Assembly (NCBI GenBank): GCA_958295955.1
Contig: OY282420.1
Location: forward strand, 3,858,435 to 3,922,434
Direction: 5' to 3'
Length of the DNA: 64,000 nt
DNA from: an uncultured Bryobacterales bacterium
Lineage (GTDB): Bacteria > Acidobacteriota > Terriglobia > Bryobacterales > UBA6623
A program made the position numbers and the translations under genes. Every line of letters starts with the position of its first letter. Position 1 is the stretch's first letter. Shown here one piece after another: positions 2,117 through 45,145 of the stretch. Under the pieces are notes generated by a model, which saw only the letters and a program-made list of their open reading frames with translations, was not told where the DNA came from and did not search any database.

Positions 2117-4219
2117 ATGACCCGGGAAGAGCTTGTCCATCGCCTGAAAAAGTACGAGTGGGCGGATATCGAGTGCAAGGAGGCTCGCAACTCCGTACCC
2201 AAGACGGCGTACAAGACGGTTGCCGCATTTGCCAACACTGCCGGCGGGCGGCTTGTGTTCGGCATCCGCGACCGCGCCGGCGCCCTCGAGATTGCCGGCG
2301 TCAGCGAGGTGGACAAGGTACAGAACGAGTTTCTGAGCACGCTCCGATCGGGGCAAAAGATGAGCCGCTCCATCGACGTAACCGAGGACGCGGTGGAAGC
2401 CGACGGCAAGACGCTGCTGGTCTTCCATATACCGGAGTCCCCGCGAAACGAGAAACCGGTCTATCTCGACGGCGACATCCGCCAATCGTTCATCCGGCGC
2501 GGGGCCGGCGACGAACGTTGCACCCGGGCGGAGATCGAGCGGTTTCTCCGGGATGCTGCCGACGATCCGTACGACAGCCAAATTATCGACGGATTGAGCG
2601 CCGAGGAGTTTTACGATGCCGTGTCCGTGCATTGGTATCGGCGCATGTTCGACGAGCACAACCCCGGCCGGAGACGAACGCTCACCGACCGCGAGTTTCT
2701 GAACGAATGGGGACTCGTCGCCGAGCATGGAGACCGCCTCGCGCCCACGCGGGCGGGCGTCCTTCTCTTCGGCGAACCGCGCTGCGTTCACCAAGTGCTT
2801 TCGCGCCCCGTTGTGGACTGCCGGTTCATTGATTCCGCCTTCGACGATTGGACGCCGGATAGACGTTGGAGCGACAGGATCGTGATCGAGGAGAATCTGA
2901 TTTATGCATGGCTGGATCTCTCCCAGCGCTATACGAACCACGCCGAACGCCCGTTTCGCATGGACCCGGAGACGCTCCTGCGCGACGACAGCCCGCCCGA
3001 TTACATTTCGTTTCGGGAGGCGGCCGTCAACCTGCTCATCCATCAGGACTACAGCGACCACGGCCGCATGGCGACGATCCGCTTCTTTCGCGACCGAACC
3101 CTGTTCTGGAACCCGGGCGACGCCTTCGCCACAACCGATGAACTCCTGGAGCCCACCGAGAAGGAGGTCCGCAACCCGGCGATCATTACCGCTTTCCGGC
3201 GCATCGGCTTAAGCGAGCAGGCAGGTACGGGTATGCGCGCGATTTTTCGCAACTGGCAGCGGCTCGGCCACGTTCCGCCTGTGATCGAGAACGACAAGGC
3301 GAAGAAGACATTCGAACTCCGTCTCCTGCGCGAGAAATTGATCGGCGAAGAGCAACGGCGGTTGCAAGTCCAACTCGGCGTGAGCCTCGACGAGATGCAG
3401 GCGCGCCTCTTCGCTTTCGCCTGCCGGCAAGGCGGCGTCTCGCTCATGGATGCAAAGGCGGTTACGGGTTGGGCGAGACCGCAGGCTCGAAAGGTTCTGG
3501 AGGCGCTCGTAGCGCAGAGTCTTCTGCAGCCGCTCGATGAGGACGGGATGCGGTACGGCCTCGCCGATCGTCTCGCGGACCGCCCGGACAACGAGTTGCT
3601 CGGTCACTCGGAAAGCGACCAAGCCGGAGACCAAGCCGGAGACCAAGCCGGCGACCAAGTTAGAGACCAAGTTAGAGACCAAGTTAGAGACCAAGTTGGA
3701 GACCAAGTTAGAGACCAAGTTGGAGACCAAGCCAAGGATCGAGCAACGTCTCAAGTCACTGAAACTATTGATCCGGCAGTAGCCGACGACCAAATCGACG
3801 ACCAAATCAGAGACCAAGTTAGAGACCAAGTTGGAGACCAAGTTGGAGACCAAGTTGGAGACCAAGTTGGAGACCAAGCCGGCGATCGAGTTTCAGATCA
3901 GGTTCAAGCTCCGGCGGGCTTGTCCCCTGCGCAAGTCGAGATGCTGAGCAGACTTTCGCCGATCCAATGGCGGGTCGTCGAGCTTTGCGCCGCGCCGCTC
4001 CGCGTGACCGAAATCATGGCCGCGCTCGGCGCCGTCAACCGCACCCACTTCAGGAAACGACGCCTGGAGCCGCTGATTCTGGCCGGCATCGTACGCATGA
4101 CGAACCCGGACAAGCCGCGGGCGCCGGACCAACAGTATGTGCTGACTAGCGCCGGGACCGCGCTCAAGGCGGCGCGCAGCGGCAAGAGTGGAGGGAGCGA
4201 GAGTCGTGGCCAAGAGTGA
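2117..4219 (+). CDS. AlbA_2 (Schlafen-like) DNA-binding / ATP-binding protein with DQV repeat region
   Basis: A 700-residue protein. Residues ~1-140 form an AlbA_2/Schlafen-type domain (IECKEA near the start, then NTAGGRLVFGI). The middle contains FREAAVNLLIHQDYSDHGR (~295-315) and a GTGM stretch, as in AlbA_2 proteins with a C-terminal ATP-binding 'putative transcriptional regulator' module. Residues ~500-596 are a low-complexity run of the tetrapeptide (G/R)DQV/A, encoded by 12-bp repeats. The last ~100 residues (SPIQWRVVELC…VNRTHFRKRRLEPLI) resemble a winged helix. The family is common in defence and toxin-antitoxin neighbourhoods, where members act as regulators or nucleic-acid-binding effectors. 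The gene lies 126 bp after the ATPase and overlaps the methyltransferase gene. I infer a regulator or effector of this island. Confidence 0.75.
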   Translation: MTREELVHRLKKYEWADIECKEARNSVPKTAYKTVAAFANTAGGRLVFGIRDRAGALEIAGVSEVDKVQNEFLSTLRSGQKMSRSIDVTEDAVEADGKTLLVFHIPESPRNEKPVYLDGDIRQSFIRRGAGDERCTRAEIERFLRDAADDPYDSQIIDGLSAEEFYDAVSVHWYRRMFDEHNPGRRRTLTDREFLNEWGLVAEHGDRLAPTRAGVLLFGEPRCVHQVLSRPVVDCRFIDSAFDDWTPDRRWSDRIVIEENLIYAWLDLSQRYTNHAERPFRMDPETLLRDDSPPDYISFREAAVNLLIHQDYSDHGRMATIRFFRDRTLFWNPGDAFATTDELLEPTEKEVRNPAIITAFRRIGLSEQAGTGMRAIFRNWQRLGHVPPVIENDKAKKTFELRLLREKLIGEEQRRLQVQLGVSLDEMQARLFAFACRQGGVSLMDAKAVTGWARPQARKVLEALVAQSLLQPLDEDGMRYGLADRLADRPDNELLGHSESDQAGDQAGDQAGDQVRDQVRDQVRDQVGDQVRDQVGDQAKDRATSQVTETIDPAVADDQIDDQIRDQVRDQVGDQVGDQVGDQVGDQAGDRVSDQVQAPAGLSPAQVEMLSRLSPIQWRVVELCAAPLRVTEIMAALGAVNRTHFRKRRLEPLILAGIVRMTNPDKPRAPDQQYVLTSAGTALKAARSGKSGGSESRGQE
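3616..3905 (+). repeat. 12-bp in-frame tandem repeat, two blocks, encoding (G/R)DQ(V/A)
   Basis: Two blocks (about 3616-3733 and 3787-3905) of the unit GACCAAGTTGGA or close variants (GACCAAGTTAGA, GACCAAGCCGGA) are separated by about 50 bp of diverged sequence. The 12-bp period keeps the frame, so copy-number changes would lengthen or shorten a hydrophilic linker between the ATPase-like core and the C-terminal winged helix without truncating the protein. Confidence 0.9.
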
Positions 4220-26141: not shown

Positions 26142-26183
26142 TCTTTCCGGCCTGCGCAGCAGCGTTTCCGGCCTGCGCAGCAG
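26142..26183. repeat. Two copies of a dispersed 21-bp repeat (TTTCCGGCCTGCGCAGCAG core)
   Basis: Two adjacent 21-bp units at 26142-26162 and 26163-26183 share TTTCCGGCCTGCGCAGCAG, whose centre CTGCGCAG is palindromic. The block ends exactly at the lactonase stop codon and lies just before the start of the NAD(P)-binding gene. The same unit recurs at 40702-40759 inside a helicase gene, 14.5 kb away. Confidence 0.85.
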
Positions 26184-32007: not shown

Positions 32008-32661
32008 TCATCTTTCAGCGGCCGAGCGGTCGTATGCTTCGAGCACATAGCGTCGGGTGCGGTATTCGCCGTATTTTTTCATCTCGCTGCTTTTGAGGCC
32101 GGGGAACGAGGCGCCCGGCGGGGGAGCGTCCAGGATGTACTCGAGGTCGGAGCGGTCCAGGCGGTACATGCGCGCGAAGATGGCGTCGAGCTCGCACTGC
32201 AAGCGATGTCGGCGATCCTCGTCCCAGGGGAAGGGCGGCCCCGCGTAGCCGAGGTCGGCGGCGAACCCCTCCAGGTCCGCGGCGGTGTAGGTCAATTCCA
32301 GGACGCGGGGCAAGACCAGCTCGGCGTACGGCAATCCGGGAGCCGCCTCTTCCAGATAAGCCTCCGGCGGCAGCACGGGCAACTGCTTGACGATGAAGAA
32401 GTTCATATTGACGCCGCCGACAGAGAAGCGGGCGGCCCAATCGAGCGGGAGGCTGTTCATGTTCGCCAGCACCAGCGCGGAAGCTACCGCCCGCGCCTGG
32501 GCATAGTCCACTACAGGGGCGCTGTTCCCTACGGCGCAACGGGGGATATTGCCCGTGAGAAAGGTGCGCTCGTTCGTGGCGTTGGTGATGCCCCGAAATA
32601 CCTGAAGCCATCGAGCGTAATCGATGGGCGGGAGAGGGGTCGCCGGATCGCCTTCGTGCAT
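32008..32661 (-). CDS. Detached C-terminal (target-recognition) module of an Eco57I-type methyltransferase
   Basis: A 217-aa frame with an ATG at 32661. The sequence YARWLQVFRGITNATNERTF, then NSAPVVDYAQA, LANMNSLPLDWAARFSVGG and NMNFFIVKQLPVLPPEAY matches the C-terminal recognition part of large Eco57I-like methyltransferases, but there is no SAM-binding or NPPY-type motif. It sits 340 bp beyond the last frame of the 33186-36731 methyltransferase, which lacks this module. It is either the displaced original C-terminus, an independently expressed specificity subunit, or a silent cassette. The MTase-type ending (RRYVLEAYDRS) is intact, which argues that it is under selection or recently separated. 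Confidence 0.75.
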   Translation of the reverse strand: MHEGDPATPLPPIDYARWLQVFRGITNATNERTFLTGNIPRCAVGNSAPVVDYAQARAVASALVLANMNSLPLDWAARFSVGGVNMNFFIVKQLPVLPPEAYLEEAAPGLPYAELVLPRVLELTYTAADLEGFAADLGYAGPPFPWDEDRRHRLQCELDAIFARMYRLDRSDLEYILDAPPPGASFPGLKSSEMKKYGEYRTRRYVLEAYDRSAAER

Positions 32662-32674
32662 GGAATCCCGATAC

Positions 32675-32688
32675 TATACCGTGGTATA
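32675..32688. promoter_or_regulatory. Palindromic operator/promoter candidate between divergent small genes
   Basis: TATACC-GT-GGTATA, two perfect 6-bp arms, lies 14 bases before the detached recognition-domain gene (minus) and 43 bases before the DUF1640 gene (plus). The minus strand also reads TATAGT here, which could be a -10 element. The position between divergent starts suits a repressor site. Confidence 0.4.
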
Positions 32689-32730
32689 AACAATAGGGCG
32701 TTGCGCAAGGACGCCGCCCTGAGGATCACA

Positions 32731-32982
32731 ATGGCAAGCGCGGCATTCAACACGCACGACGCGGTCAGGAAGTTGAGAGCGGCCGGAGCCGAGGAACCCC
32801 TGGCCGAGGCGGTAGTGGAAACCGTTGACGAAGCCGTCAGCGAGCTTGTGACCAAAAGCGATCTCAAAAACGAGGTCGACAAGTTGAAGGCAGAGTCCAA
32901 AGCCGAGCTCTATCGCGCATTGTGGATTCAAGGCATTGGCATTATCGGCGCTACAGTCGCTTTGATAAAGCTCTTGCCGTAA
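32731..32982 (+). CDS. Small DUF1640-like coiled-coil membrane protein
   Basis: An 83-aa protein beginning AAFNTHDAVRKLRAAGAEE. The middle is a charged coiled coil (VTKSDLKNEVDKLKAESKAEL) and the last ~20 residues are one membrane helix (WIQGIGIIGATVALIKLLP). This is the bacterial CCDC90/DUF1640 pattern. An RBS-like GAGGAT sits upstream of the ATG. It is the only plus-strand gene in this stretch and sits between two pieces of methyltransferase recognition domain, so it looks like cargo that split, or arrived after the splitting of, the larger gene. Function unknown. Confidence 0.75.
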   Translation: MASAAFNTHDAVRKLRAAGAEEPLAEAVVETVDEAVSELVTKSDLKNEVDKLKAESKAELYRALWIQGIGIIGATVALIKLLP

Positions 32983-33001
32983 GCAAAAGCCTTTTACGGG
33001 A

Positions 33002-33274
33002 TCACGGAGAGCGGCGGTTATCGGTGGAGCCGATGTGCAGGAGAGGGGCTTTGTTGCTCACTGCCGCTCCCCCCGGTAAGGCGGCGAAGACGGATGTTCG
33101 TTGGTTTGTGGGGCTTGCGATATCCCTGAAGACAAGGAGCCAACGACGATTGTCGTTCCCGAATCGCTCAGGCCGAAAGGCGGGATTATCGCGAAGACTC
33201 CCGTCCGCTCGTTGGTTGCGTTGGTGATCTTTCTGAGAGCGAGTTGCGGGCAAGCTTGGCGAGGATATCGAGAA
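33002..33274 (-). pseudogene. Out-of-frame recognition-domain remnants following the pentamer tract
   Basis: Beyond the repeat, the two frames not used by the current methyltransferase each encode a version of the conserved motif seen intact at 32008-32661 (VFRGITNATNERT). One frame, ending at 33058, reads LRKITNATNERTGVFAIIPP. The other, ending at 33002, reads WLLVFRDIASPTNQRTSVFAALP then NKAPLL. They start about 117 bp apart, so they are two successive remnants, not one motif read twice. Both stop well short of the full module. I treat the block as debris of the recognition domain that slippage in the tract could bring back into frame. Confidence 0.65.
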
Positions 33275-36200
33275 CCCGACCCGACCCGACCCGACCCGAC
33301 CCGACCCGACCCGACCCGACCCGACCCGACCCGACCCGACCCGACCCGACCCGACCCGACCCGACCCGACCCGACCCGACCCGACCCGACCCGACCCGAC
33401 CCGACCCGACCCGAGTATCAAGCACAACCGCCTCCCGTTTGTCAACTCTTTCGGCTACTTCATTCTCGGGCACCCAGTAGCGCGGGACGATAACCGCTTC
33501 GGGGTTCGCCTTCTCTTGCGCGGTCATCTGCCGGGCGTTTCCATTGCGGATGTCCTTGGCCGAGACGTCCTCGAAGGTGGCGAAGCGGTGGTCGTATTGG
33601 TGGAAGAGCTTGGCCTCGTACAGCGGCAGGTAGCGCTCTTTGCCGCGCGTGAACACGTTGCCCTGCAGGCGCCAACCCGCTTCCGCCAACTGCTCGCGCG
33701 TGCGGAACAGACCGGAGTCGTTGGCCATGTCGAACATCCGCTGGAACTTCGCGCCCCAGGGATTGGCCTCCGGTTCTTCGTCTTGCGCCTCCCGCCGGAA
33801 CACCCCGGCGCGGCGGTACATCTTGCGGGCGATCTCCATGTCCCGCCGGGTTCGGAAGATGGGGCAGGTGCGCGTGTTGGGATTGAACAGCCGGATGTCC
33901 TCGGCCGACAGCGCGAACCGCCGCCCGGCGTCGCGAAGCTGCTCCGGTGCGGTGCAGAAAAAAGCGAACTCGGGCGCGGGGCAGGGAAGCGCGGCGCCGG
34001 TCAGCGTCAGCAAACAGAACTTGATCCGGCTGTCAATGTCTGCAAAGACCTTCTCCCGGTTCTCGAAGTCGTACAGGCTGACCAGCCTCTGCCCGGCGAC
34101 CGTTTCGTCGAAGAATGCCTTGGTCGAATGGTCCGTGGCGATGCCGGTAGGCGCGATCAGTCCCGCGCGGCCTTTCGGCGACAGCAGCCGCAGGAACGTC
34201 TCGGCAAACACCGCGTAGGTGTTCACGTCGCCGACGCCGGTCAGAGGAAACCGCCCGCCGCCGCGGATGAACAGGCTTGACGCCTCGGCTTCTCGTCTCG
34301 CCGTTTCGAACTCGGCAAAGAGCGTCTTTTCCGCCGGCAGCGCGGCCTCAAGGGCCAAGCGCTCGATGAGCCGGTTGCGCGCCGCCTTGTTCGGGGCGGC
34401 GGCGATCTCCGGCGAGCGCGATGCGAAGAACTCCTGCTCCTGCAGCTTGACGCGCTCCCACGGCGGATTGCAGATTACGACGTCGAAGCCGCCGCGGCGC
34501 ATGACTTCGGCAAAGGCCGAGCGCCAGTGAAAGAAGCCGTGCCGCGCGGCCGATTCGCGGACCGCGGCCTCGACTCCCGGCCGCATGGTCAGCCCCTTGT
34601 CGAGGCGGTTGAGGTCTTCGCCGAGCGGCGCGGTCTCCAGCGCGTCTCTCGTCTTGCGGGCGAAAAACGCGCCGACGAAGAGGTCGGCGCGCAGCTTCTC
34701 TCTTGCGCGGGACTTGTCCCCGGTTTCCCAGGCGGCGCGCTTGCGGTCGACGTCGTCGATCGTCTCTTCGGACATGTCTTCCCAGTCGGCGGCCGGCGCG
34801 GCGGCTTGCGCCAAGCTGCCCGCGGCGAGCAGGCTGCCTTGCACGGAGCGGCCTGTTTGCCTGTTGCGCCGCTTGAGATCGCGGCAGACGATTTTGTCGT
34901 CGCCGGTGAGCGGCTTGTAGGCGGCGCCGGGAATGCCCTCGGCCATGACCGCCGGGTCGAGGACGCCGATCAGGCTGTCGCCGCAGCGGACGTGGGCGTC
35001 GAGGAACGACAGCGGCTTGCCCGGCTCGACCGTTTCGATCCAGAGCGCCGCCTTGCACAACGCGATCGCGAGCGGGTTGCGGTCGACGCCGTAGATGCAG
35101 CGCTGCGCGACCTCGCGCAACGCCTGACGGCGCGCGGCTTCGTCGTCGACGCCGGCTTCGAGGCGCGCGATCTCGGCGGCCATGCGCCGCGCCGCAGCCA
35201 GCAGGAAATGTCCCGAACCGCACGCCGGGTCGACGACCTTGAGCTCGAGCACGGCCGCCCGCGGGTCTTCGGGATGCTCGGCAACGGCCCGGGCGATCGC
35301 CGGGTCGAGCGCCGAGCGGATCAACTCATGCACCAGCGCGGGAGGGGTGTAATAGGAGCCGGTCAGTTTCCTCGCGGAGCCTTTGCCGTCGACGAGGTCG
35401 AACGTCCAGGGCGAGGCGTCCACGTCCAGCGCGGGCTGCAACTCCAGCAGGCTTTCGTAAACGGAGCCGAGCTCTTCGGTTCCCATGTCGCGGTAGTTGA
35501 CGCGGACGAGCGCCGCGCCGGAGGGGAAGAAGGCGAGGGCGCGCACGGCTTCCAGCAGATGCGCGTTGGCGATGGCTGCGCCGTCCAGGTCGGGGCACTG
35601 CTCGCGGCGGAACAGGCCGCCCAGGGCCGGCAGGCCGAGAGCGGGCGCGCCGCGGTCGAGAGCGGCGAAGGCAATGCGCAGGCTCTGCCAGAGGTCCCGG
35701 TGGCGGTCGTAGTGCCGCCGGCGCAGGGCGCGTTCGCGCAGGCGGGCCAGGGAGTAGCCTTGCGCGTACACGGCGCGCTGCGCTTCCGCGGCGTCCGGCG
35801 CATGCAGCAGGCCGCGCTCTTCGACGGTGAAGAGAAAAAGCAGGCGGTAAACCAGCCCGAGAAGCTGCCGGAACCAGTCTTCGGGCGTGAGCGCGCCGGA
35901 CCGCAGGGCGGCGCGCAGGCCGCTGTTGTCCGCGTGCTGCAGGAAGCCGTTGCCCAGGCTGCGCAAGGCATCGGCGACGCCGCTGCGGAGATTTTGCAGG
36001 GCGCGCTCGCCGGTTTTGTGGGCTTCGGCGCGCCAAGTCTCGAGGATGCAGCCGGAAGGCTTGCCGTCGGCCGGCTGCAGGCGTCCGGCATGGGCAACGA
36101 GCCAGAGCGCGGCGAAGTCGGGGTAGAGTTCTTCTTCGAAAATGAGATCGAGGTCGGCTTCGATGCAGGCGGGCCGCGTCAGGCTGGGGTTGTCGCGCAG

Positions 36201-36731
36201 GATGCGCAGCTTCGCTCCGTTGGAGACGATGCCCCACAGGCAGGCATCCGCGGCATTAAGGTACTCCTGCACGAGTCCGTGGGGGGCTTCCCGGCGGCCT
36301 TCCCAGCCGAAATGCGGGTCGGCCTTGTCGAGATCGAAGCCGCGCGCCGCCAGCAGCAGGGGCACGGCCCCGCCGCAGGCGCGGTGGGTCAGCTTGAAGA
36401 CGCGGTCCCGCTCGGCGGCGCTGCCGGCCGCGGTCAGATCGTCGTAGCCGAGGACGGAGCGCAGCAGCGGCTCGAGCCATTCTTTGACGCCCACCCGCCG
36501 CGCGTCGAGGTCTCGGCGGGCGCGGCGCAGGGCGTAGCGGGAGTAGAGATCGCCTGCGATGCGCCAATAGCGGGCGATCTCGTCCTTAAGCGCGAGCGAC
36601 TGCGAGAGGCCGTAGTCGGCGCCGTTCTGCCGCGGCGCTTTCAGCGCGGCGACGGTCCGCAGGAACTCGGGCGGCAGGATGCCGCCTGTGACCCGCAGCG
36701 CCGCGAACGCATGACTTTTTCGCGCCGCCAT
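33186..36731 (-). CDS. Eco57I-type adenine DNA methyltransferase with 3' phase-variable tract (DrmMI-like)
   Basis: A 1181-aa protein. Start ATG 36731 (MAARKSHAFAALRV) is chosen over the longer frame from 36791 because the extra residues lack coding character. An N-terminal helical region leads to TGSYYTPPALVHELI, then the SAM motif VVDPACGSGHFLLAA (~499) and the catalytic FDVVICNPPWERV (~755), a gamma-class N6-adenine methyltransferase. It continues to VPRYWVPENEVAERVDKRE, where intact relatives enter the FRDI recognition domain. Here the frame instead enters the 28-copy CCCGA tract and ends after a 29-aa nonsense tail, so the encoded enzyme lacks its recognition module. It is the third gene of a minus-strand set with two helicases. 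It is probably inactive in this frame. Confidence 0.88.
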   Translation of the reverse strand: MAARKSHAFAALRVTGGILPPEFLRTVAALKAPRQNGADYGLSQSLALKDEIARYWRIAGDLYSRYALRRARRDLDARRVGVKEWLEPLLRSVLGYDDLTAAGSAAERDRVFKLTHRACGGAVPLLLAARGFDLDKADPHFGWEGRREAPHGLVQEYLNAADACLWGIVSNGAKLRILRDNPSLTRPACIEADLDLIFEEELYPDFAALWLVAHAGRLQPADGKPSGCILETWRAEAHKTGERALQNLRSGVADALRSLGNGFLQHADNSGLRAALRSGALTPEDWFRQLLGLVYRLLFLFTVEERGLLHAPDAAEAQRAVYAQGYSLARLRERALRRRHYDRHRDLWQSLRIAFAALDRGAPALGLPALGGLFRREQCPDLDGAAIANAHLLEAVRALAFFPSGAALVRVNYRDMGTEELGSVYESLLELQPALDVDASPWTFDLVDGKGSARKLTGSYYTPPALVHELIRSALDPAIARAVAEHPEDPRAAVLELKVVDPACGSGHFLLAAARRMAAEIARLEAGVDDEAARRQALREVAQRCIYGVDRNPLAIALCKAALWIETVEPGKPLSFLDAHVRCGDSLIGVLDPAVMAEGIPGAAYKPLTGDDKIVCRDLKRRNRQTGRSVQGSLLAAGSLAQAAAPAADWEDMSEETIDDVDRKRAAWETGDKSRAREKLRADLFVGAFFARKTRDALETAPLGEDLNRLDKGLTMRPGVEAAVRESAARHGFFHWRSAFAEVMRRGGFDVVICNPPWERVKLQEQEFFASRSPEIAAAPNKAARNRLIERLALEAALPAEKTLFAEFETARREAEASSLFIRGGGRFPLTGVGDVNTYAVFAETFLRLLSPKGRAGLIAPTGIATDHSTKAFFDETVAGQRLVSLYDFENREKVFADIDSRIKFCLLTLTGAALPCPAPEFAFFCTAPEQLRDAGRRFALSAEDIRLFNPNTRTCPIFRTRRDMEIARKMYRRAGVFRREAQDEEPEANPWGAKFQRMFDMANDSGLFRTREQLAEAGWRLQGNVFTRGKERYLPLYEAKLFHQYDHRFATFEDVSAKDIRNGNARQMTAQEKANPEAVIVPRYWVPENEVAERVDKREAVVLDTRVGSGRVGSGRVGSGRVGSGRVGSGRVGSGRVGSGRVGSGRVGSGRVLDILAKLARNSLSERSPTQPTSGRESSR
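33275..33414. repeat. Pentanucleotide tract, exactly 28 copies of CCCGA
   Basis: An uninterrupted run of 140 bp, 28 perfect CCCGA units (TCGGG in the sense of the gene). Three units encode VGSGR, so the current frame contains a VGSGR repeat in the methyltransferase. Because 5 is not a multiple of 3, loss or gain of a unit changes the downstream frame. Perfect long tracts of this type are contingency loci in phase-variable methyltransferases. Confidence 0.98.
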
Positions 36732-36950
36732 TACAGATATGGTAGGCGCAAGCGCGCCAAGCGCCCGAAACGCGGCGGCGCATGTCTGCAAGGCCGACGC
36801 CGGAGAGCGTTATAACGAGGGCCGGCCGGTTGCCCCCGAGGGGTGATGCGCGGCCCCGGAGGCCGGCTATATGCAAGAATACGCCTGAAGAAGACGCGCA
36901 GAGCTTGGGAACGTCTGTTGCCGGCGCGCGCAGCGGCTGAGGCGCCCGCC

Positions 36951-39854
36951 TCACAAGTTCGCCAGGGGCATGAAGACGTAAACCCCGATCTTGTCCACCG
37001 GCAGCGCCGGCGTCACCGCGTAGCGCAGGCCGCGGGCGCCGCTTGCCTCGCGGATGCGCCGGTGGTCGGAGAGCAGTTCCCGGGCGCGCCGGCGGGCGAT
37101 GTCGGAGAACGCCTCTTCCAGGTCGGGCAGCGCGGCGAGAGCCTGCCGGATCAGCATGCTTTTTTGCCCGTCTTCCATGTTGCGGCCGGGTTCGAGCGCG
37201 AGCAGCGCAAGGGCGTCGCCGTCGGCCGGCAGCTCGGGCGCGGCGCCGGCGCGGACGACGACAGCGAGGCATTCTTCGGCCAACAACGCTTTCGCCGGCG
37301 CGGGACGGCCGTCCGCGCCGCGCCGCTCGACCTCGATCTGACTGCGCAGGCGCAGCAGGTAGAGCACGGTGCGGGTTTCGACCCCCGCGGTGAAGACCGC
37401 GCCCGCCCGGGCGGCGATTTGCGGGTTGCCGGCGTCGAGCGCCTGTTCCGCCGCATAGTCCGCAAGGGCGGCGACCAGCGGATGCGCGCGGTGGATGTAT
37501 GCCGCTCCCTGCGGCGCGGGTTGGGCGAAGGCGAGCTTTGCCGAAGATGAGAAGCCGATGCCGTCGAGGCGGTCCTGGAGCGCCCCGGGCAGGTGCTTGA
37601 CCGGCAGGCGGCAATACCCGTTGCGCCGGTCGAGCGGCGCCCCCAGGCGTTGGGCGGCCGAGCGGACGAAACGGGCGACGTCGTCCGGCCCGCCGAGCAC
37701 GGCAACGGCCTTGCGCCATTCCGGGAGAACGTCGTCCGGCCGCAGCCGCCGCTGGGCGAAGATCGTGCGCGTCCGCGTCATCCTGTCGCGCGCGTTCCGC
37801 CAAGCCTCGTCCACTTCGTCTTCGACGTCCCCGAAATCGAGCTTGCGCTGCTCGACCGCTTCGGCTATGCCGCCGCTGCGCAGCAGAACCGCCTTCATAA
37901 CGGCGTCCACGACCTTGTTGCCGTCGGCCGGCAGGGGCACGGCCACGCCCAACTCCTTGCGGATCTTGGATGCCTTGCGCAGGATCACCTGGAGCACGGC
38001 GCCGTCCACGGGGTTGTTTTCGCCGTAGAGCATCAGCGCGCGCACCGCGGGCGACGCCTGCCCGAAACGATCGGCGCGGCCCTCGCGCTGCTCGTGGCGG
38101 GTCGGGTTCCAGGTGAGATCGTAATGGATCACCGCATCGAACCGGCTTTGCAGGTTGATGCCTTCGGACAGGCAGTCCGTGGCCGCTAGCACCGGCGCCG
38201 CGCCGGATTCGAGATCGTCCAATTCCTCGATGCGCTCTTCGCGCTGGTCGGAGGTCAACTCTCCGGTAACGACGGCGACGCGGGTTTTCTGCTGCGGCAA
38301 GGCGCGCTGCAACTCCTCGCCGACGTAGTGGGCGGTGGCGACGTAGCGGCAGAACACGACCGGCTTGAAGCCGTCCGCGAGCAGCCGCCGCGTCTCGACG
38401 ATCAGCAACTTCAGCTTGGGGTCGTTGGCCGGGCCGCGCAGGGCGTCGGCGCGGGCGATCAGCCGGCGCAGCGCCGGGGCGTCCTCCGGCGTTTCCAGGG
38501 CGCCGGCGGGCGCGCTTTCGTTGCGCGTCAGGGAGTCGTCGTCCGCTTCGTCCATGACCGTTTCGCCGGCCGCCCGGTCGAGGTCGGCGATTTGCTCTCG
38601 CTCGCTCTCTCCTGCCGCGGCTTGCAGCCGCGTGCGCAGGGCCAGCGAAGCCGCGGCGGGGCTGGAGGAGACGCAGCGCAGCAGCGCCAGCGCCGCCCAC
38701 CAGGACATGCGCTGCTGCAGCTTGCTGCCGCCTTCGGCACGCTCGACCATGGCGCGGGCATAGGCCAGCGCGTCGTCGAAAAGCCGCCCCCAATCGCCGG
38801 TCAAGCGGTAGGTGGCTTCGCGGCTCTCGCGGACGGGGAAGCCGGCGGCGTCCTTCCACTCGGCGATGTCGCCGCGCCGGCGCTGGATGAAGCGTCCGGC
38901 GAGCTTTTCGCGCAGCTTGCCGCGCGCCTCGCCTTCGGGCATTGCGGCAAGCTGCGCGAATTCGGGCGCCAGCAGGCCCAGCAGGTTGTGAAAAGCGGCG
39001 TCGTCGCCGGAATGCGGCGTGGCCGTGAGGAATACCATGTGCCGCCGGGGCTCGCCCGCGGCGAGGCCCCGGAGCAGACGGTAGCGTTGATGGCGGGCGG
39101 CGGTATCGGCCCGCACGCAGGCATGGGCCTCGTCCACAACGACGAAATGCGGGCAGGCGCGCAGGAAATCTTCCCGGCGGCGGTCGGATTTGATGTAGTC
39201 CAGGGAGACGACCGTATAGGGATGGACTTCGAAAATGGATTCATCCGGCCGCAGTCCCCGTTCGAGACGCGCGGCCGTGCCGGTGCGGACGACCTCGGCC
39301 TCGATGCTGAATTTCTCCGCCAGCTCCTGCTGCCACTGCTCGCAGAGATGCGGCGGACAGAGGACGGCGAGCCGCTCGACCTCGCCGCGGTCGATCAACT
39401 CGCGGGCGATCAGGCCGGCTTCGATGGTCTTGCCGATGCCCACGTCGTCGGCGATCAGCAGGCGGACGGTGTCCAGCTTGAGCGCCATGAGCAGCGGCGC
39501 CAGTTGATAGGCGCGGGGCTCGACGTTGAGGTTGCCGAAGCTTCTGAAGGGGCCGGCGCCGGCGCGCAGCTTCAGGCGCAGCGCGTCGCGCAGGAGGAGC
39601 GCCGCTTCCCGCGAGCCCGGCTTTTCGGGGTCCGGCAGGTCGAACGTTGCCGCCGCGGGCTGCTCGGTCTCCAGCGGCAGATAGATCAGCGAGGCATCGT
39701 CCTCGGCCCCGCCGAGCGGCCGCAGCTTCAGCAGGTCGGGCCGCGTCTCGGGCAGAACGACCCATTCACGCCCCCGCGCCCGCACCAGATCGCCGGGCTT
39801 GAACCGAACCGCCGCTTCCATTGCGCGCTCTTTGCCCCGCTCCTCCGCTTTCAT
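36951..39854 (-). CDS. SNF2-like superfamily 2 helicase (DrmD/BrxHII-like)
   Basis: A 967-aa protein. Start ATG 39854 overlaps the stop of the giant helicase (ATGA); a second ATG at 39821 (MEAAVRFKPGDLV) is also plausible. Motifs: Walker A LIADDVGIGKTIEAGL (~139), DEAH box VVDEAHACV (~236), motif III FLTATPHSGDD (~275), and the second RecA lobe with LSEGINLQSRFDAVIHYDL then EQREGRADRFGQ (~560-592). The C-terminal ~300 residues are specific and end in a QEV-like region. This layout fits the SNF2 helicases of DISARM (DrmD) and BREX-3/4 (BrxHII). It probably translocates on DNA for the neighbouring methyltransferase and helicase-nuclease. Confidence 0.85.
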   Translation of the reverse strand: MKAEERGKERAMEAAVRFKPGDLVRARGREWVVLPETRPDLLKLRPLGGAEDDASLIYLPLETEQPAAATFDLPDPEKPGSREAALLLRDALRLKLRAGAGPFRSFGNLNVEPRAYQLAPLLMALKLDTVRLLIADDVGIGKTIEAGLIARELIDRGEVERLAVLCPPHLCEQWQQELAEKFSIEAEVVRTGTAARLERGLRPDESIFEVHPYTVVSLDYIKSDRRREDFLRACPHFVVVDEAHACVRADTAARHQRYRLLRGLAAGEPRRHMVFLTATPHSGDDAAFHNLLGLLAPEFAQLAAMPEGEARGKLREKLAGRFIQRRRGDIAEWKDAAGFPVRESREATYRLTGDWGRLFDDALAYARAMVERAEGGSKLQQRMSWWAALALLRCVSSSPAAASLALRTRLQAAAGESEREQIADLDRAAGETVMDEADDDSLTRNESAPAGALETPEDAPALRRLIARADALRGPANDPKLKLLIVETRRLLADGFKPVVFCRYVATAHYVGEELQRALPQQKTRVAVVTGELTSDQREERIEELDDLESGAAPVLAATDCLSEGINLQSRFDAVIHYDLTWNPTRHEQREGRADRFGQASPAVRALMLYGENNPVDGAVLQVILRKASKIRKELGVAVPLPADGNKVVDAVMKAVLLRSGGIAEAVEQRKLDFGDVEDEVDEAWRNARDRMTRTRTIFAQRRLRPDDVLPEWRKAVAVLGGPDDVARFVRSAAQRLGAPLDRRNGYCRLPVKHLPGALQDRLDGIGFSSSAKLAFAQPAPQGAAYIHRAHPLVAALADYAAEQALDAGNPQIAARAGAVFTAGVETRTVLYLLRLRSQIEVERRGADGRPAPAKALLAEECLAVVVRAGAAPELPADGDALALLALEPGRNMEDGQKSMLIRQALAALPDLEEAFSDIARRRARELLSDHRRIREASGARGLRYAVTPALPVDKIGVYVFMPLANL

Positions 39855-42800
39855 TCGGCAGCCGGCGCTTTGCCCTTGCCGAAGACCCAGGCGTACTCGT
39901 CCGCGATGCGCCCCCAGGACGCCCGCTCCGCGGGAAAGCGCACGACGGTGAAGCCCGCATCGCGAAGGCGCCGCGTGATCTCGGCGTCGAGGGCTTTTTG
40001 GCTGCTTCCCCGGTGGACGGGGCCGTCGATGTAGATCAAGGCTTGCCGCTCGGCGTAGGCAAAGTCGGGTCGGGTATGGAATTTCTCGAGGTAGGGCTGC
40101 GCCCGGTCCGGCAGGCGGCGGCCGCTCGTTTTCAGATAGTCGAGCCACGCCTTTTCGAGGCTGGAATGCGAGGCGTTGCGCATATCGTCGAAGCTTTCGC
40201 CCAGCGGGGAGGCGCAAGTCTTGCGTTCGCTGCGCGCCAGCCGGCAGAGCAGATCGAGCATGTCTTCGTTGCGGCGGTCGATTCGTTCGTGGTCCGGCTG
40301 GTTGTAGTAGCTGAGCAGGCAGCGGTAGCAGCCGGCCTCGCAGTCTTTCTCCCGATTTTCGAGGCCGGCGGCATCGAGCGGGCCGCCGGATTGCGAGGCG
40401 TAGTGGCAGACTTCCAGCGCCTTGCGGGCGACCTGCCTTATCGCTTCGGGATCGCTTGCCAGACGGGTGAGGACGCCGGCGCCGCCTTCGGCCGCCTCGT
40501 AGAAAAGGACGGCGGCGCGCTTGTCCCGCTCGGGCAGGGGCTCGGCGGCAAGCTCCGCCTCTTCCAATTGGAACTCCTGCTCGATGCCGCGTTTGAGTGC
40601 GTACTGCAGCGAGATCATGGCCTCGTCAGAAAGCTGGGCGCCCGGCCTGACGACCAGGATGTTGCGGGTGTCCTCGACGAAGGGCGTAATGCGCTCGATC
40701 TTTTTTCCCATCTGCGCAGCAGTTTTTCCGGCCTGCGCAGCAGTTTTTCCGGTCTGCGCGCCGTCGTCTTCCGCGTCGGTCGGCGCTTGGTCGTCTTTGG
40801 TCCATTCGCCGGTATGGGCATCGATGCTGAAGCCGTAGATGGACTTCTCTCGGCGCCGCCGCCAGCCGAGGTTGATGCGCCAGAGCGTAGCGGCCGGGCC
40901 GTATTCGAACTTGAGGAGAGTTTCTCCTTTTTCCTGCAACTCGGCGCGCTCGACGCGCGGCCTGCCGTTCTCCTCGGCGAAGCGCAGCGTGGTGATCGTC
41001 TCGTAACCTTGACGCTGCCGCTCTTCTTCGTCGGAGGTGATGCGCATGGCCCGCCGGGTCGAGACTTGCTCGATGCGGTAGAGGTTGGAGACGATGCGGC
41101 TGTCCGCGAGGGAGGCGGCGCAGTTGACGCAGCGTTCGAAACTCTTGCGCTCTCCGAAATGTCCGTAACCGCAGGCGGGACAGATGCGGGCGGCTTGCAC
41201 CGGCAGCCCGGCCGAAGCGGCTGCCTCTCCCTCGCCGCGGATGGCGAGCAGGGCGCGCCGCACGCGGTAAGTGCTGCCCTCGTGGTAGATGATGGATTGC
41301 GGGCCGAACTCGCTGAGCCCGAGAAAGCGGGGGCGGCTCAAGAACGAGTCGCGAACCAGTCTCTCGCGCCGCCCGGGGATGAAGGCCATAAGCGGCAGGC
41401 GGGGGAAGTTGTAGCCCGGCAAGAAGCCCTCCGCCGCGAGATAGCGGTAGGTATGGAAGTCCGAGTTCATCGTCGCTTTGCTTTCGAGCAGCAGATTCTG
41501 CTGAGTATAGGCTTCGTCGTAGCGGGACTTGGCCTCTTGGCGTTCGCGTTCGGTCGCCGCGGCGTTGTGCAGCACCGCGTTGGCGGATTGCATCTGGCGC
41601 GACGTAGCGAGGTAAAGAGAGCGCCAGCGGCGAAAGGCTCCATCGAACCGCAGCTCCGCGGAGTTCACCGCGCTGTCGAGCCACCTTTCCGTGTACCAGG
41701 GGGCGGCCGGCCCGGAGAGGTCTTGCTCGAGTGTGGCCAGGATGCGCCGCGCGCGCCTTTTCGTTGCGTCCACGGCTTTGGCCCCGCGGATATCCTCGGC
41801 GAGTTTTTGGCGCAAGGGCAACTCGACGGGGTTTTCCAGATCGAGCGCTTCGCGCACTGATTTGCCCGGCGAAGCTTCCGTTTCCACCAGCCAGACTGCG
41901 TGCAGGTGGCTGCGTACGAGGTCTTCGTTGGCCAAGTCGATGGACGGCGCATTGACGGCGCCGGCGACCATGCGCGCCGGCTCTGAGAAAAAGTACTGGT
42001 CGTGGGGCGAGCGGGCCGCGCAGTAGGTAATGACCAATGCCGGTTGACCGCTGCGGCCGGCGCGTCCGCTGCGCTGCGCGTAATTGGCCGGCGTGGGCGG
42101 CGCGTTGCGCATGTAAACCGCGTTGAGCGTGGAGATGTCGATGCCGAGTTCCATGGTCGGCGAGCAGAAAAGGATGGGCAAGCCTGCCGGCTCCACCCGG
42201 TCGTCCACGATGCGCTCGTCTTCGAGGCCCTTGCGGAAACGCATTTCGCGTTCTTCGCGGACCCCGGCCTCGACCTGCGCCGTATGTTCCCGCGCTTCCA
42301 GGCGGTGCAGGAAATGTTCGCCGCCATCCAGGAGCTTTGCGGCATTGTCGTAGAGGGCGCGGAAGAACCGGTTGGCGGCGTCGGCGCCCGCGGCGAGACG
42401 CCATTCCAGAACGGAACTGTCGATGCGGTAACCGACTTGCCGCCCGCCGCGGCCGCCGTTCGGGTCTGTCGGCTCCACATAGCCGTAAACGGTCAGCACG
42501 CTCAAGATGCCGTCGACGAGGGCGTTGTAATCCTGCTCGCCGAACTGCTGCGGCCGGCGCGAGGCTGCGGCGCCCGCCAGGGCTTGCGAGCGGAGTTTCC
42601 GTCCGAAGGCGGAGCGGTGGGAGACGTGAACCAGGCGGGAGTCCTTGCCGCCGATTTTTGAGGCGGGACGCGGGACCATGACGGCGTGCGGTTCGAGGCG
42701 GTCTTCTTCCGACAGTCCCCAGGGTTCTTTCAACTCGTTGAAGCTGCGGTTGCGGATCTGCTCCTGGAAGCTCGGGTCGAGGTAGATGGTCTTGATGCAG

Positions 42801-45145
42801 AGCGCCTTGCGCATGCGGTCGAGCAGAGCGCGGGCGATAGCGAAGCGCTGCTCCGGGGTCATGGCGCCGAGCAGCGGGTGCGCCTTGCGCCATTCCACCT
42901 CGTCTTGGCAGCAAGCCTCGAGCTCCCGGTAGCGGATATCCAGGAGGTTGAGTTGCTCCAGGTTGGGGTTGGCGATGCGCCAGCCGCGCTGCAGATCGAA
43001 ATAGAGCCGGTAGCCCAGAACGTCGCGCAGGGTCTTGAGGGTATTGCGCGCCTTGAGGCCCTTGGCCTCGGGGTTGGCGGCGTAATCCGCCGGGGTCAGG
43101 CGCAGGCGGTCGAGTACGCGCTGGGTCAGCACGTCGTCGGTCAAGCCGCGCTTCGGGTTTTGTCGAACGGCGGCGAGCAGCGCGCCCCGCAGCAGCAGAA
43201 TCTGGATGAAGTCGTTGAAGTGCCCGGCCTGGAGGCTGGCGTCCTGCCGGTTGTCGGTAAAGGCGAGCAGCTTCTTGGTTTTCTCATTGAGGTCGGCGCC
43301 GATCAGGTGCTTCAGGGCGGACAGCGCCAGCACGGTCGTGGCCGAGCTGCGGCCCTCGCTCGACAGGCCGGAGAGCTTGCTCAGATCGCTGCGCCTACCC
43401 TCGTAATGGACGGCGCAATCCGGGTTGAGGCAGAAGCGGAACGATCCGGGAACGAACCACGCGGGCAGCCCTTCGCCGGCGGCCTTGCCCCGGGTATCCA
43501 CCTGGACCTCGATGGGGCTGTAGCGCTTATAGTGGGGCTTGAGGCGCGGCGCGCCGTTGCGCAACTCCAGCCAGTTCTCCGGGTAGTGGCGCTCCAATTG
43601 CGCCGGGACGAATGCCGCCGCGTTGTCGGGCAGCAGATAGCCGTGGCGCAACTCCTCATCTTCGTTGGAGCGTTCGGCAAGATCGCGCGGGCTGAACTTG
43701 CGCGGCCTTCCGCCCTCGATTTCCGCCCACACCGGGAAATATTCCTGGCCGCACTCCCGGCAGAAAGCGAGATTGAATAGGCGCCGGTCGCGGCGCCCCG
43801 GTTGGAGTTGCTGCCCGTGCAGCGTGACGAAGCGTTTTCCGGGCGCCTCCAGGGTGGAGTAGGCGTTCCAGGCGCCGCTGATGAACTGGTGGAGGCGGAA
43901 GGCGAAGAACTCGCGGCGGCTCTCGTTCCTGCTGTTCCAGGCGGCAAGCAGGAAGTCCGCGAGGTAGCGGCGGCAATCCTCGCTCTGCAGGCCGCTTTTC
44001 TTGGCGAGCCTTGCCGCGGCTTCCTTGACCGTCAGCGGCCGCGAGATGCGGGCGAGCTTGCCGTCTCGTTTTTCCAGACCGAGATTCCATTCCACCCAGG
44101 CGGCAATGGGGTGTCTTGTCAGTTCGGCGTGGGTCGGCTCCGCCGGAACGCCCGCCTCGATGGCGCGGCGCAGTTCGGCGCGGCTGCCGAGCGCGCCGCG
44201 GGTAACGCGCTCAAGGGTTTCGGTGACGACGTTGGCGGGCTTGACGGCGGCGCCGAAAAGCCGGCCGGCAACGGCCGCGACAGCCGCGTTGCGCTCGCCG
44301 GCCGATCCTTCCGAGGCCATGGTGGCGGAGGTGCCGATGCAGAGCAGATTCTCGTTGAACCGTTCCCGCACGCGCCGCACCAGCATGGCCACGTCGGCGC
44401 CCTGCCGCCCGCGGTAGGTGTGCAACTCGTCCAGAACCAGAAAGCGGAGCCCCGCCGCATGCTTGCGCACGGTCTTATCGTTTTCCAGGAAGCGCGTCAG
44501 GATCAACTCGAGCATGACGTAGTTCGTCAGCAATATGTCGGGGGGATTTTTGGCGATCCGTTCCCGCTCATCGTTCGACTCCTGTCCGGTATAGCGGGCA
44601 AAGGTCACCGGTTCGTTGCCCTTGCCGTAGCCGCAAACCAGAAACTTCTCCAATTCCTCCAGTTGGCTGTTGCACAGGGCGTTCATCGGATAGACGACGA
44701 TGGCGGAGATGCCCCGGCCGGCATCGCCGGATTTCTTTCTGCGCAGCACGTCGTCGACGATGGGGATGAAGTAGCTGAGCGACTTGCCGGAGCCCGTGCC
44801 GGTGGTCAGCACGTAGCTCTCGCCCCGTTTGGCGATGGCGATAGCTTCGGTCTGGTGGCGGTGTAGAACGAGGGGCTCGCCGCCCGCGCCGCGGCCGGCC
44901 GGTTTCTTGAGCCGGAAGATATTGGCGCATTCGGCGTCGAGGACGCCTTGGGCTGCGAGCTCGTCGATAGAGCCGCCCTTGACGAAATTGGGGTTCAACT
45001 GAATCAGCGGGTCGGGGCAGAAGCGGCCGCCGCGGTAGGCGTCGTCGACGGTCCGGCGGATGTCTTCCGCGCGGATTTTGACGAAGCTTCGCGAGAAGCG
45101 CTCGTAGTCCTCGACGATCTGATTACGGAAAGCGAAAACGTCCAT
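39851..45145 (-). CDS. Giant DEAD/DEAH helicase fused to DUF1998 and a C-terminal nuclease-like domain (DrmA-DrmB-like)
   Basis: A 1764-aa protein. An N-terminal SF2 helicase has Walker A TTGTGSGKSLSYFIP (~114), LDELHTYRGRQG (~237), SATMAS (~273) and motif VI QRSGRAGRSG (~1023). A CREC zinc-like pair lies at ~470. After motif VI come RICPACGYG…CVNCA (~1322) and a DUF1998 core with the Cys cluster KDCEAGCYRCLLSYYN (~1598). The last ~100 residues (SLEKAWLDYL, RPDFAYAERQALIYIDGPVH, ITRRLRDAGF) resemble a DUF559/Vsr-type endonuclease. In DISARM, helicase (DrmA), DUF1998 (DrmB) and nuclease (DrmC) are separate proteins; here all three functions appear in one chain. It heads the operon. In-frame 21-bp repeats sit at ~1463-1481. 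Confidence 0.83.
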   Translation of the reverse strand: MDVFAFRNQIVEDYERFSRSFVKIRAEDIRRTVDDAYRGGRFCPDPLIQLNPNFVKGGSIDELAAQGVLDAECANIFRLKKPAGRGAGGEPLVLHRHQTEAIAIAKRGESYVLTTGTGSGKSLSYFIPIVDDVLRRKKSGDAGRGISAIVVYPMNALCNSQLEELEKFLVCGYGKGNEPVTFARYTGQESNDERERIAKNPPDILLTNYVMLELILTRFLENDKTVRKHAAGLRFLVLDELHTYRGRQGADVAMLVRRVRERFNENLLCIGTSATMASEGSAGERNAAVAAVAGRLFGAAVKPANVVTETLERVTRGALGSRAELRRAIEAGVPAEPTHAELTRHPIAAWVEWNLGLEKRDGKLARISRPLTVKEAAARLAKKSGLQSEDCRRYLADFLLAAWNSRNESRREFFAFRLHQFISGAWNAYSTLEAPGKRFVTLHGQQLQPGRRDRRLFNLAFCRECGQEYFPVWAEIEGGRPRKFSPRDLAERSNEDEELRHGYLLPDNAAAFVPAQLERHYPENWLELRNGAPRLKPHYKRYSPIEVQVDTRGKAAGEGLPAWFVPGSFRFCLNPDCAVHYEGRRSDLSKLSGLSSEGRSSATTVLALSALKHLIGADLNEKTKKLLAFTDNRQDASLQAGHFNDFIQILLLRGALLAAVRQNPKRGLTDDVLTQRVLDRLRLTPADYAANPEAKGLKARNTLKTLRDVLGYRLYFDLQRGWRIANPNLEQLNLLDIRYRELEACCQDEVEWRKAHPLLGAMTPEQRFAIARALLDRMRKALCIKTIYLDPSFQEQIRNRSFNELKEPWGLSEEDRLEPHAVMVPRPASKIGGKDSRLVHVSHRSAFGRKLRSQALAGAAASRRPQQFGEQDYNALVDGILSVLTVYGYVEPTDPNGGRGGRQVGYRIDSSVLEWRLAAGADAANRFFRALYDNAAKLLDGGEHFLHRLEAREHTAQVEAGVREEREMRFRKGLEDERIVDDRVEPAGLPILFCSPTMELGIDISTLNAVYMRNAPPTPANYAQRSGRAGRSGQPALVITYCAARSPHDQYFFSEPARMVAGAVNAPSIDLANEDLVRSHLHAVWLVETEASPGKSVREALDLENPVELPLRQKLAEDIRGAKAVDATKRRARRILATLEQDLSGPAAPWYTERWLDSAVNSAELRFDGAFRRWRSLYLATSRQMQSANAVLHNAAATERERQEAKSRYDEAYTQQNLLLESKATMNSDFHTYRYLAAEGFLPGYNFPRLPLMAFIPGRRERLVRDSFLSRPRFLGLSEFGPQSIIYHEGSTYRVRRALLAIRGEGEAAASAGLPVQAARICPACGYGHFGERKSFERCVNCAASLADSRIVSNLYRIEQVSTRRAMRITSDEEERQRQGYETITTLRFAEENGRPRVERAELQEKGETLLKFEYGPAATLWRINLGWRRRREKSIYGFSIDAHTGEWTKDDQAPTDAEDDGAQTGKTAAQAGKTAAQMGKKIERITPFVEDTRNILVVRPGAQLSDEAMISLQYALKRGIEQEFQLEEAELAAEPLPERDKRAAVLFYEAAEGGAGVLTRLASDPEAIRQVARKALEVCHYASQSGGPLDAAGLENREKDCEAGCYRCLLSYYNQPDHERIDRRNEDMLDLLCRLARSERKTCASPLGESFDDMRNASHSSLEKAWLDYLKTSGRRLPDRAQPYLEKFHTRPDFAYAERQALIYIDGPVHRGSSQKALDAEITRRLRDAGFTVVRFPAERASWGRIADEYAWVFGKGKAPAAE
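40702..40759. repeat. Dispersed 21-bp repeat inside the giant helicase gene (2.7 copies)
   Basis: Units at 40702-40722 and 40723-40743 plus a partial third to 40759 (TTTTTCC-GGCCTGCGCAGCAG), with slight variation in the first. In the gene they encode AAQAGKT repeats in a linker between the DUF1998 part and the helicase C-terminal segment. The same unit occurs in non-coding DNA at 26142-26183. A 21-bp length keeps the frame, so insertion here is tolerated. Confidence 0.85.

Follow-up and report, generated by a model that had tools for sequence, protein, structure and literature searches.

Organization of the locus

The 64,000-nucleotide stretch of contig OY282420.1 considered here (hereafter the window), from an uncultured Bryobacterales bacterium, carries a gene for a gamma-class N6-adenine methyltransferase (MTase) that contains, towards the 3' end of its coding region, a perfect pentanucleotide microsatellite, behind which stand three copies of a short unit, the last of them in a separate open reading frame (ORF) (Table 1). 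The assembled MTase ORF (33186-36791, minus strand) enters this array with its 3' part. Its body matches Pfam Eco57I (3.9e-16) and the PADLOC model DrmMI (5.1e-67), and the protein combines a Rossmann-type MTase domain, motif I with NPPW/Y and a C-terminal recognition domain, the features by which the gamma class is defined. Twelve other loci in distant phyla share the layout, making 13 loci with the window.

The array, on which the initial annotation of this DNA was silent, abuts copy 1 and is the sole site in the source genome with at least five ACCCG units. It encodes (VGSGR)n in every frame without a stop and has three exits: frame A, the assembled state of the window, terminates about 30 residues past the array, frame C leads into copy 1, and frame B leads into copy 2. 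When unit numbers from 25 to 31 were set in silico, the endings cycled through A/B/C with a period of three, each change in repeat length giving a new C-terminus. The frame C stop (33060-33058) is a TGA that overlaps the GTG of copy 2. The frame A stop is present in 11/11 loci and is largely forced by the motif codons; the ratio of nonsynonymous to synonymous differences (pN/pS) of 0.67 over the 11 codons after the array is at most a weak hint of constraint on this frame and is not used as evidence. The position of the array in front of the copies explains their layout.

Table 1. Features of the MTase locus, its array, units and operon in the window
Feature	Position	Strand	Basis
Body of gamma-class N6-adenine MTase (DrmMI/Eco57I/PglX-like), ending at RYWVPENEVAERVDKREAVVLDT	33415..36791	-	Pfam, PADLOC, fold of relative
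Perfect pentanucleotide array (ACCCG)28.2, candidate slippage switch	33274..33414	-	TRF
Frame A tail VLDILAKLARNSLSERSPTQPTSGRESSR followed by an early stop, assembled state	33186..33273	-	Frame translation
Unit copy 1, ALRKITNATNERTGVFAIIPPFGLSD, frame C	33240-33163	-	Recurrence at fixed spacing, pN/pS
Unit copy 2, VFRDIASPTNQRTSVFAALPGGAAVS, frame B, with GTG at a conserved start-codon position (V of AVSNKAPLL)	33133-33056	-	Recurrence, pN/pS
Unit copy 3, VFRGITNATNERTFLTGNIPRCAVGN, opening part of the C-terminal ORF	32601-32524	-	Recurrence, pN/pS
Stand-alone ORF, 217 residues: copy 3 and C-terminal (spacer-helix) domain of the MTase	32008..32661	-	Similarity to relatives
409-bp insert with flanking 18-nt imperfect direct repeats	32622..33048	.	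Repeat family D19; spacing compared with relatives
CCDC90/DUF1640-like coiled-coil ORF inside the insert	32731..32982	+	PF07798 E 2.7e-4, below gathering cut-off
SNF2-type helicase, DpdE/DrmD-like, same operon	36951..40217	-	PADLOC DpdE 1.5e-208, DrmD 2.3e-83; adjoins the MTase in relatives too
DruE-like DEAD/MrfA-type helicase, same operon	39851..45145	-	PADLOC DruE 1.7e-91, Pfam MZB; kept in relatives

Three homologous units under frame-specific selection

All three copies lie on the minus strand in direct orientation, copies 1 and 2 in different frames, and the DNA repeat analysis of the window contains no inverted copy of the unit. One DNA repeat family, D2, joins the three sites, with identities to copy 3 over 26 nt of 88% for copy 1 and 69% for copy 2. 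Judged by their fixed spacing in relatives, their clustering by kind and the purifying selection in their own frames, the motif copies are real rather than chance matches. They are homologous units of the end of the target recognition domain (TRD) of the MTase. The initial annotation had placed three motif copies at these sites, the third in an intact ORF, and had held that a single frameshift would not account for them, and these points are borne out.

Copies 1 and 2 lie 107 nt apart in 11/11 measurable loci; the locus L069 stands outside this count, with a unit period of 113 + 113 nt, so that its three units stand in three different frames and each frame has a unit of its own. Copies 2 and 3 are usually separated by 120 nt; the window departs from this with 532 nt (123 nt plus the 409-bp insert), L068, likewise with an insertion, has 222 nt, and L070 possesses two copies only. 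Frame B is free of stops over copy 1 in 11/11 loci, for which synonymous shuffling gives a joint chance of about 10^-7.9, an optimistic figure given that the loci are related. An invariant 107-nt spacing with both frames open across the overlap might also be expected if ribosomes shifted in a programmed manner from frame C into frame B within copy 1 and so made one protein with all units, but such frameshifting does not explain an array of ever-changing non-triplet units and is highly improbable.

Across ten loci, pN/pS in the units' own frames is 0.36 for copy 1 (codon bootstrap 0.28-0.48), 0.35 for copy 2 and 0.25 for copy 3, compared with 0.93-1.97 in shifted frames (0.93 and 1.97 for copy 1), these ratios being uncorrected pairwise proportions over 26 codons in related loci. 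By this measure purifying selection acts on every copy, and solely in the frame that belongs to it, which rules out copy 1 as a relic; the segment of copy 2 ahead of its possible start codon gives 0.33. The copies group by position when compared with one another, except in L068 and L069, and the triplication is therefore old. Part of copy 1 in L068 is almost the same as the matching part of copy 2, the result of some conversion.

The initial annotation had explained the copies by repeated recombination or duplication of a recognition cassette, comparable with the shuffling of type I hsdS genes, leaving copies 1 and 2 as truncated remnants and the 32-kb copy as a possible silent donor. The presence of three homologous copies, the partial likeness of two of them in L068 and the better conservation of the cassette than of the body in some pairs of loci would all suit this account. 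Against it stand the direct orientation of the units, their fixed 107/120-nt spacing across distant phyla, their clustering by position, the lack of inverted copies, the frame-specific selection, which extends to both supposed remnants, and the frame-shifting array at the site in every locus: the variable element is the microsatellite. Segments exchanged by recombination, the hallmark of hsdS shuffling, which usually involves inverted copies or a silent hsdS together with a recombinase, are thus not seen among these direct, regularly spaced units, although a recombinase gene was not systematically searched for. Recombination of this kind, with the 32-kb copy as a silent donor, is very unlikely as the main mechanism, whereas the other role proposed for the 32-kb ORF, that of an independent subunit, may be correct.

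One site and many repeats in distant phyla

The C-terminal ORF led to two genomes of the same family, in each of which the MTase and the C-terminal part lie on separate contigs and the MTase contig breaks at a microsatellite right behind RYWVPExEVxxRLDK (GAGCC in genome G009, CAGG in G010). When 84,980 species genomes were scanned with the C-terminal alignment, close relatives at 51-77% came from Acidobacteria, Chloroflexi, Acidimicrobiia, Alpha- and Gammaproteobacteria, Rhodothermales and Latescibacterota; one more locus, L161, was added by searching the class of L063. Some 1,450 further genomes, from the phylum of the window, the classes of L063 and L061 and the family of L064, yielded only one or two more loci, which indicates that the system is rare and scattered. 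Viral contigs yielded no relatives.

In 13/13 loci a non-triplet simple repeat occupies the same codon position late in the coding region, while the repeat itself differs. Pentanucleotides are GGGTC x28 in the window, GAGCC in L060 and L051, AGACC x20 in L061, ATCGG x24 in L063 (a chromosome-level assembly) and GGACA x16 in L066; tetranucleotides are CAGG in L050 and ACAG around a run of N in L069. Two contig ends of Thioalkalivibrio HK1 (L148/L070) carry GAAC/AACTCGAC repeats; in L142/L075, a separate locus, GTCAACC repeats stand at two contig ends. L161 has a (GA)n dinucleotide repeat, and homopolymers occur as C11 in L064, G9 in L068 and, where a contig of L144 ends, a long run of G, the length of which may be a sequencing artefact. 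Unit lengths are thus 1, 2, 4, 5, 7 and possibly 8 nt, with no multiple of 3. The turnover of the repeat unit at a fixed site may mean that selection maintains the switch rather than any particular repeat.

Other homologues from the scan served as controls. Among these 68, 66 continue in one open frame of at least 100 residues into a single unit, and near the site they show only two short chance runs, A8 and ACG4; perfect arrays of 4-5-nt units are confined to this site within the 943 kb of loci retrieved. All three frame states occur among the seven loci with an assembled state: A in the window, L066 and L068, C in L061, L063 and L161, and B in L064.

The locus L051 of G009 shares 48% identity with the window in the MTase body and 40% in the helicase, whereas the cassette is 76% identical, a disparity hinting at mosaic inheritance. 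In genome G015, a related MTase (L052, 8090-8231) breaks off at GVFPGVH, where unrelated sequence takes over close to the contig end.

Exchange of the recognition cassette between MTase bodies was considered and rejected: although the end is more identical than the body in some pairs, identity rises gradually towards the end, so that no clear breakpoint emerges.

Possible split and fused forms of the methyltransferase

In most relatives, frame B passes through copy 2, copy 3 and the C-terminal domain without interruption. The C-terminal part is up to 75-78% identical in the nearest relatives and free of stops, and it is entered there by frame B. The window departs from this arrangement through the 409-bp insert, missing from the relatives, which parts copy 2 from copy 3; as a result, no frame of the window yields a fused full-length protein. 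This is the observation that would favour a decaying gene, broken by an expanded microsatellite and an insertion and surviving only as relics. Such decay is scarcely credible, given a layout common to 13 loci in many phyla with different repeat units and a C-terminal ORF that retains its similarity to relatives and contains no stops.

The insert is bounded by the imperfect direct repeat CCCCTCTCC[T/C]GC[A/C]CATCG and holds, as the initial annotation had recognized, a DUF1640-like gene between copies 2 and 3, although the Pfam match is sub-threshold. The small CCDC90/DUF1640-like family has three more members in the source genome (L168, L169 and L170), and the insertion with its gene is possibly a small mobile unit.

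The valine of AVSNKAPLL in copy 2 is a possible start codon in 12/13 loci (GTG in 8, ATG in 2 and TTG in 2, with GTT in the remaining locus; a few rows, for example L063, were read by eye from the printed sequence), compared with 3/12 at the equivalent position in copy 3 (Fisher p ~0.001). The C-terminal part is an ORF of its own in the window (through the insert), in L068 and in the orphan L065 of HK1. These features suggest that translation from an internal GTG/ATG in copy 2 can also yield the C-terminal part as a chain of its own. Frame C may then produce an enzyme of two chains, and frame B a fused enzyme, a division that is suggestive only. For the window, the insert would suggest that the split form alone is possible now. 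Taken to its end, this line of reasoning treats the C-terminal ORF as a separate subunit gene and the array as a toggle between a split enzyme (frames A and C, with reinitiation at the copy 2 GTG/ATG) and a fused one (frame B). The excess of start codons in copy 2, the overlap of the frame C stop with the start codon (GTGA/ATGA) in 5/11 loci and the existence of the ORF alone, in HK1 even without its MTase, favour this possibility; the Shine-Dalgarno-like runs upstream are uneven, however, and in the other loci the frame C stop lies away from the start codon. It is a possible explanation, though one held with some doubt, and it is compatible with the switch proposed below, of which it would form the second half. 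The stop/start overlap was rejected as a universal mechanism and is kept as a suggestion.

Thioalkalivibrio sp. HK1 (L065, L070 and L148) has an orphan ORF of copy 3 plus C-terminal domain distant from its MTase. It also has a cassette of two copies that possesses a C-terminal domain of its own.

Predicted structure and the place of the unit

The natural frame B protein of L064 was modelled as 958 residues with a mean predicted local distance difference test score (pLDDT) of 86, and comprises a gamma-class MTase with a recognition domain. Its nearest solved folds are CamA (Z 24.6), BrxX/PglX (BrxX-DNA 9ewz, Z 24.2), M.BseCI and MmeI, with sequence identities to BrxX 9ewz and CamA of only 15-17%. 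In this model, copy 3 (residues ~750-786) forms closing strands ahead of the C-terminal helices. The recognition domain of BrxX ends at residue 837, and the nearby N823 contacts base A4 (PMC11842806). By position, the unit should cover the end of this domain; sequence-profile comparison for a residue-level placement of the unit on PglX/MmeI gave no match beyond the catalytic motifs.

A proposed three-way C-terminal switch

Taken together, these features probably reflect a three-way phase variation by which slipped-strand events change the C-terminus of a DrmMI/PglX-like MTase. The array would act as a switch between the MTase body and the end of the TRD, the gain or loss of one 5-nt unit moving translation into the next reading frame. 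Frame A would stop after about 30 residues and is probably off; frame C would add copy 1 and then stop; frame B would add copy 2 and, in most relatives, continue via copy 3 to the helices of the C-terminal domain. The closing strands of the TRD would thus exist in alternative versions that have diverged, one per unit, and a population would consist of cells with differing enzyme forms. Such forms would likely differ in DNA recognition or activity, with consequences for phage defence. That slippage occurs in living cells, that both long forms are translated and that specificity changes are inferred here from sequence, whereas the array, its frames, the conservation of site and spacing, the frame-specific purifying selection and the occurrence of all three frame states among assembled loci are shown.

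Several observations weigh against this explanation. In the L064 model, disorder extends over residues 661-747, which comprise the tract, copy 1 read out of frame, and copy 2; copy 3 alone among the units of the B state is folded confidently. For L061, whose natural protein ends in frame C, the model has strands in copy 1 with pLDDT of only ~30-40, so that placing copy 1 in the TRD slot of copy 3 is conjectural. The C form is without the C-terminal domain found in single-copy relatives, and the window has no frame for the fused protein. Each locus is known from one assembly, mostly a metagenome-assembled genome, and five have a contig break at the array; the simplicity of the selection ratios belongs to the same list.

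The first of these points bear on plain ON/OFF switching, in which only the fused, full-length product of frame B would be active, A and C being off and copy 1 a passenger. A C form without the conserved domain and a poorly modelled copy 1 fit this scheme, and Streptomyces PglX is switched ON/OFF by a G tract (PMC4365076). A passenger would nevertheless hardly be under purifying selection in frame C alone, lie at an invariant distance from copy 2 and be selected by the assembled state in 3/7 loci, and ON/OFF switching is accordingly rather unlikely. Three-way C-terminal variation would probably change the DNA recognition or activity of the MTase. The further proposition that this is a horizontally spread, three-position recognition switch, with a microsatellite as frame selector before tandem recognition elements that confer different DNA specificities, is plausible but tentative, falling a little short of an even chance.

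Operon context and other repeats

In the window the operon runs in the order DruE-like helicase, SNF2 helicase (DpdE/DrmD-like) and MTase. The cassettes of relatives have the same three genes; the DruE-like gene comes first in the window, L050 and L163 and is located behind the C-terminal ORF in L162 and L062. Since the family models of these genes point to defence and the genes accompany the cassette in relatives, the operon most likely serves in phage defence. DISARM DrmMI, Druantia DruE and DpdE are the nearest family models for the three proteins, but the combination fits none of the full gene sets, as far as seen. DISARM class 1 (drmMI, drmD, drmA, drmB, drmC) does not apply, the third operon gene being DruE-like; for Druantia, the DruE-like helicase is present and type-specific partner genes were not seen among the genes tested, other types being possible. 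The genes tested next to the operon encode a PQQ enzyme and cytochrome c.

A second homologue in the source genome (L002, G000:C1:2083847-2087437) is an ordinary single-copy frame of 1373 residues without array or extra copies. The window also contains two nearly alike 21-mer arrays (TTTCCGG[CT]CTGCGCAGCAG) at 26144-26183 and 40702-40759, of which the latter lies within the DruE-like gene and keeps its frame, and an imperfect 12-nt tandem array at 3617-3878 with 20.6 copies of GACCAAGTTGGA.

Significance and comparison with known systems

Repeat-based phase variation as known mostly turns genes on or off, and the described examples come mostly from animal pathogens. Here bacteria of many phyla, most of them uncultured, retain one switch point although its repeat has been replaced repeatedly. 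If the endings change DNA recognition, one locus would provide several restriction or defence specificities per clonal population without recombination, and would exemplify selection building coding content into alternative frames. The case also carries a warning: short-read assemblies break or freeze such loci, and annotation then calls the genes broken.

The class of mechanism is a known one, namely C-terminal phase variation rather than hsdS-type recombination. It has been described in Helicobacter canadensis (PMC2823697) and Neisseria gonorrhoeae (PMC5320596), where likewise a simple repeat late in the gene shifts the frame and changes the C-terminus, and where one frame fuses with the next ORF (NGK_1211/1212 and HCAN_0660/0661). 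Those cases are from single species and mostly involve homopolymer tracts, with no homologous units reported in the alternative frames, whereas the present loci place selected homologous units in tandem, in two or more frames (all three in L069), extend across phyla and replace the repeat unit. No description of a conserved cassette of selected homologous units in alternative frames behind a changing repeat was found in the open-licence literature.

Other systems resemble the locus in part. Recombination between duplicated hsdS genes (PMC7394358) perhaps shares the aim of several specificities from one locus, but recombination is not seen here. The PglX of Pgl/BREX in Streptomyces phase-varies through a tract within a defence MTase of the same type, although by ON/OFF truncation without described alternative coding units. 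In the NgoAV system of N. gonorrhoeae (hsdS1/hsdS2), tract length decides whether the specificity subunit is truncated or fused, and the methylated sites were shown to differ between the two forms (PMC9577141); NgoAV, however, is a Type I HsdS with a poly-G tract and two forms, while the enzyme described here is a gamma N6 MTase of a single chain in which the end units are duplicated.
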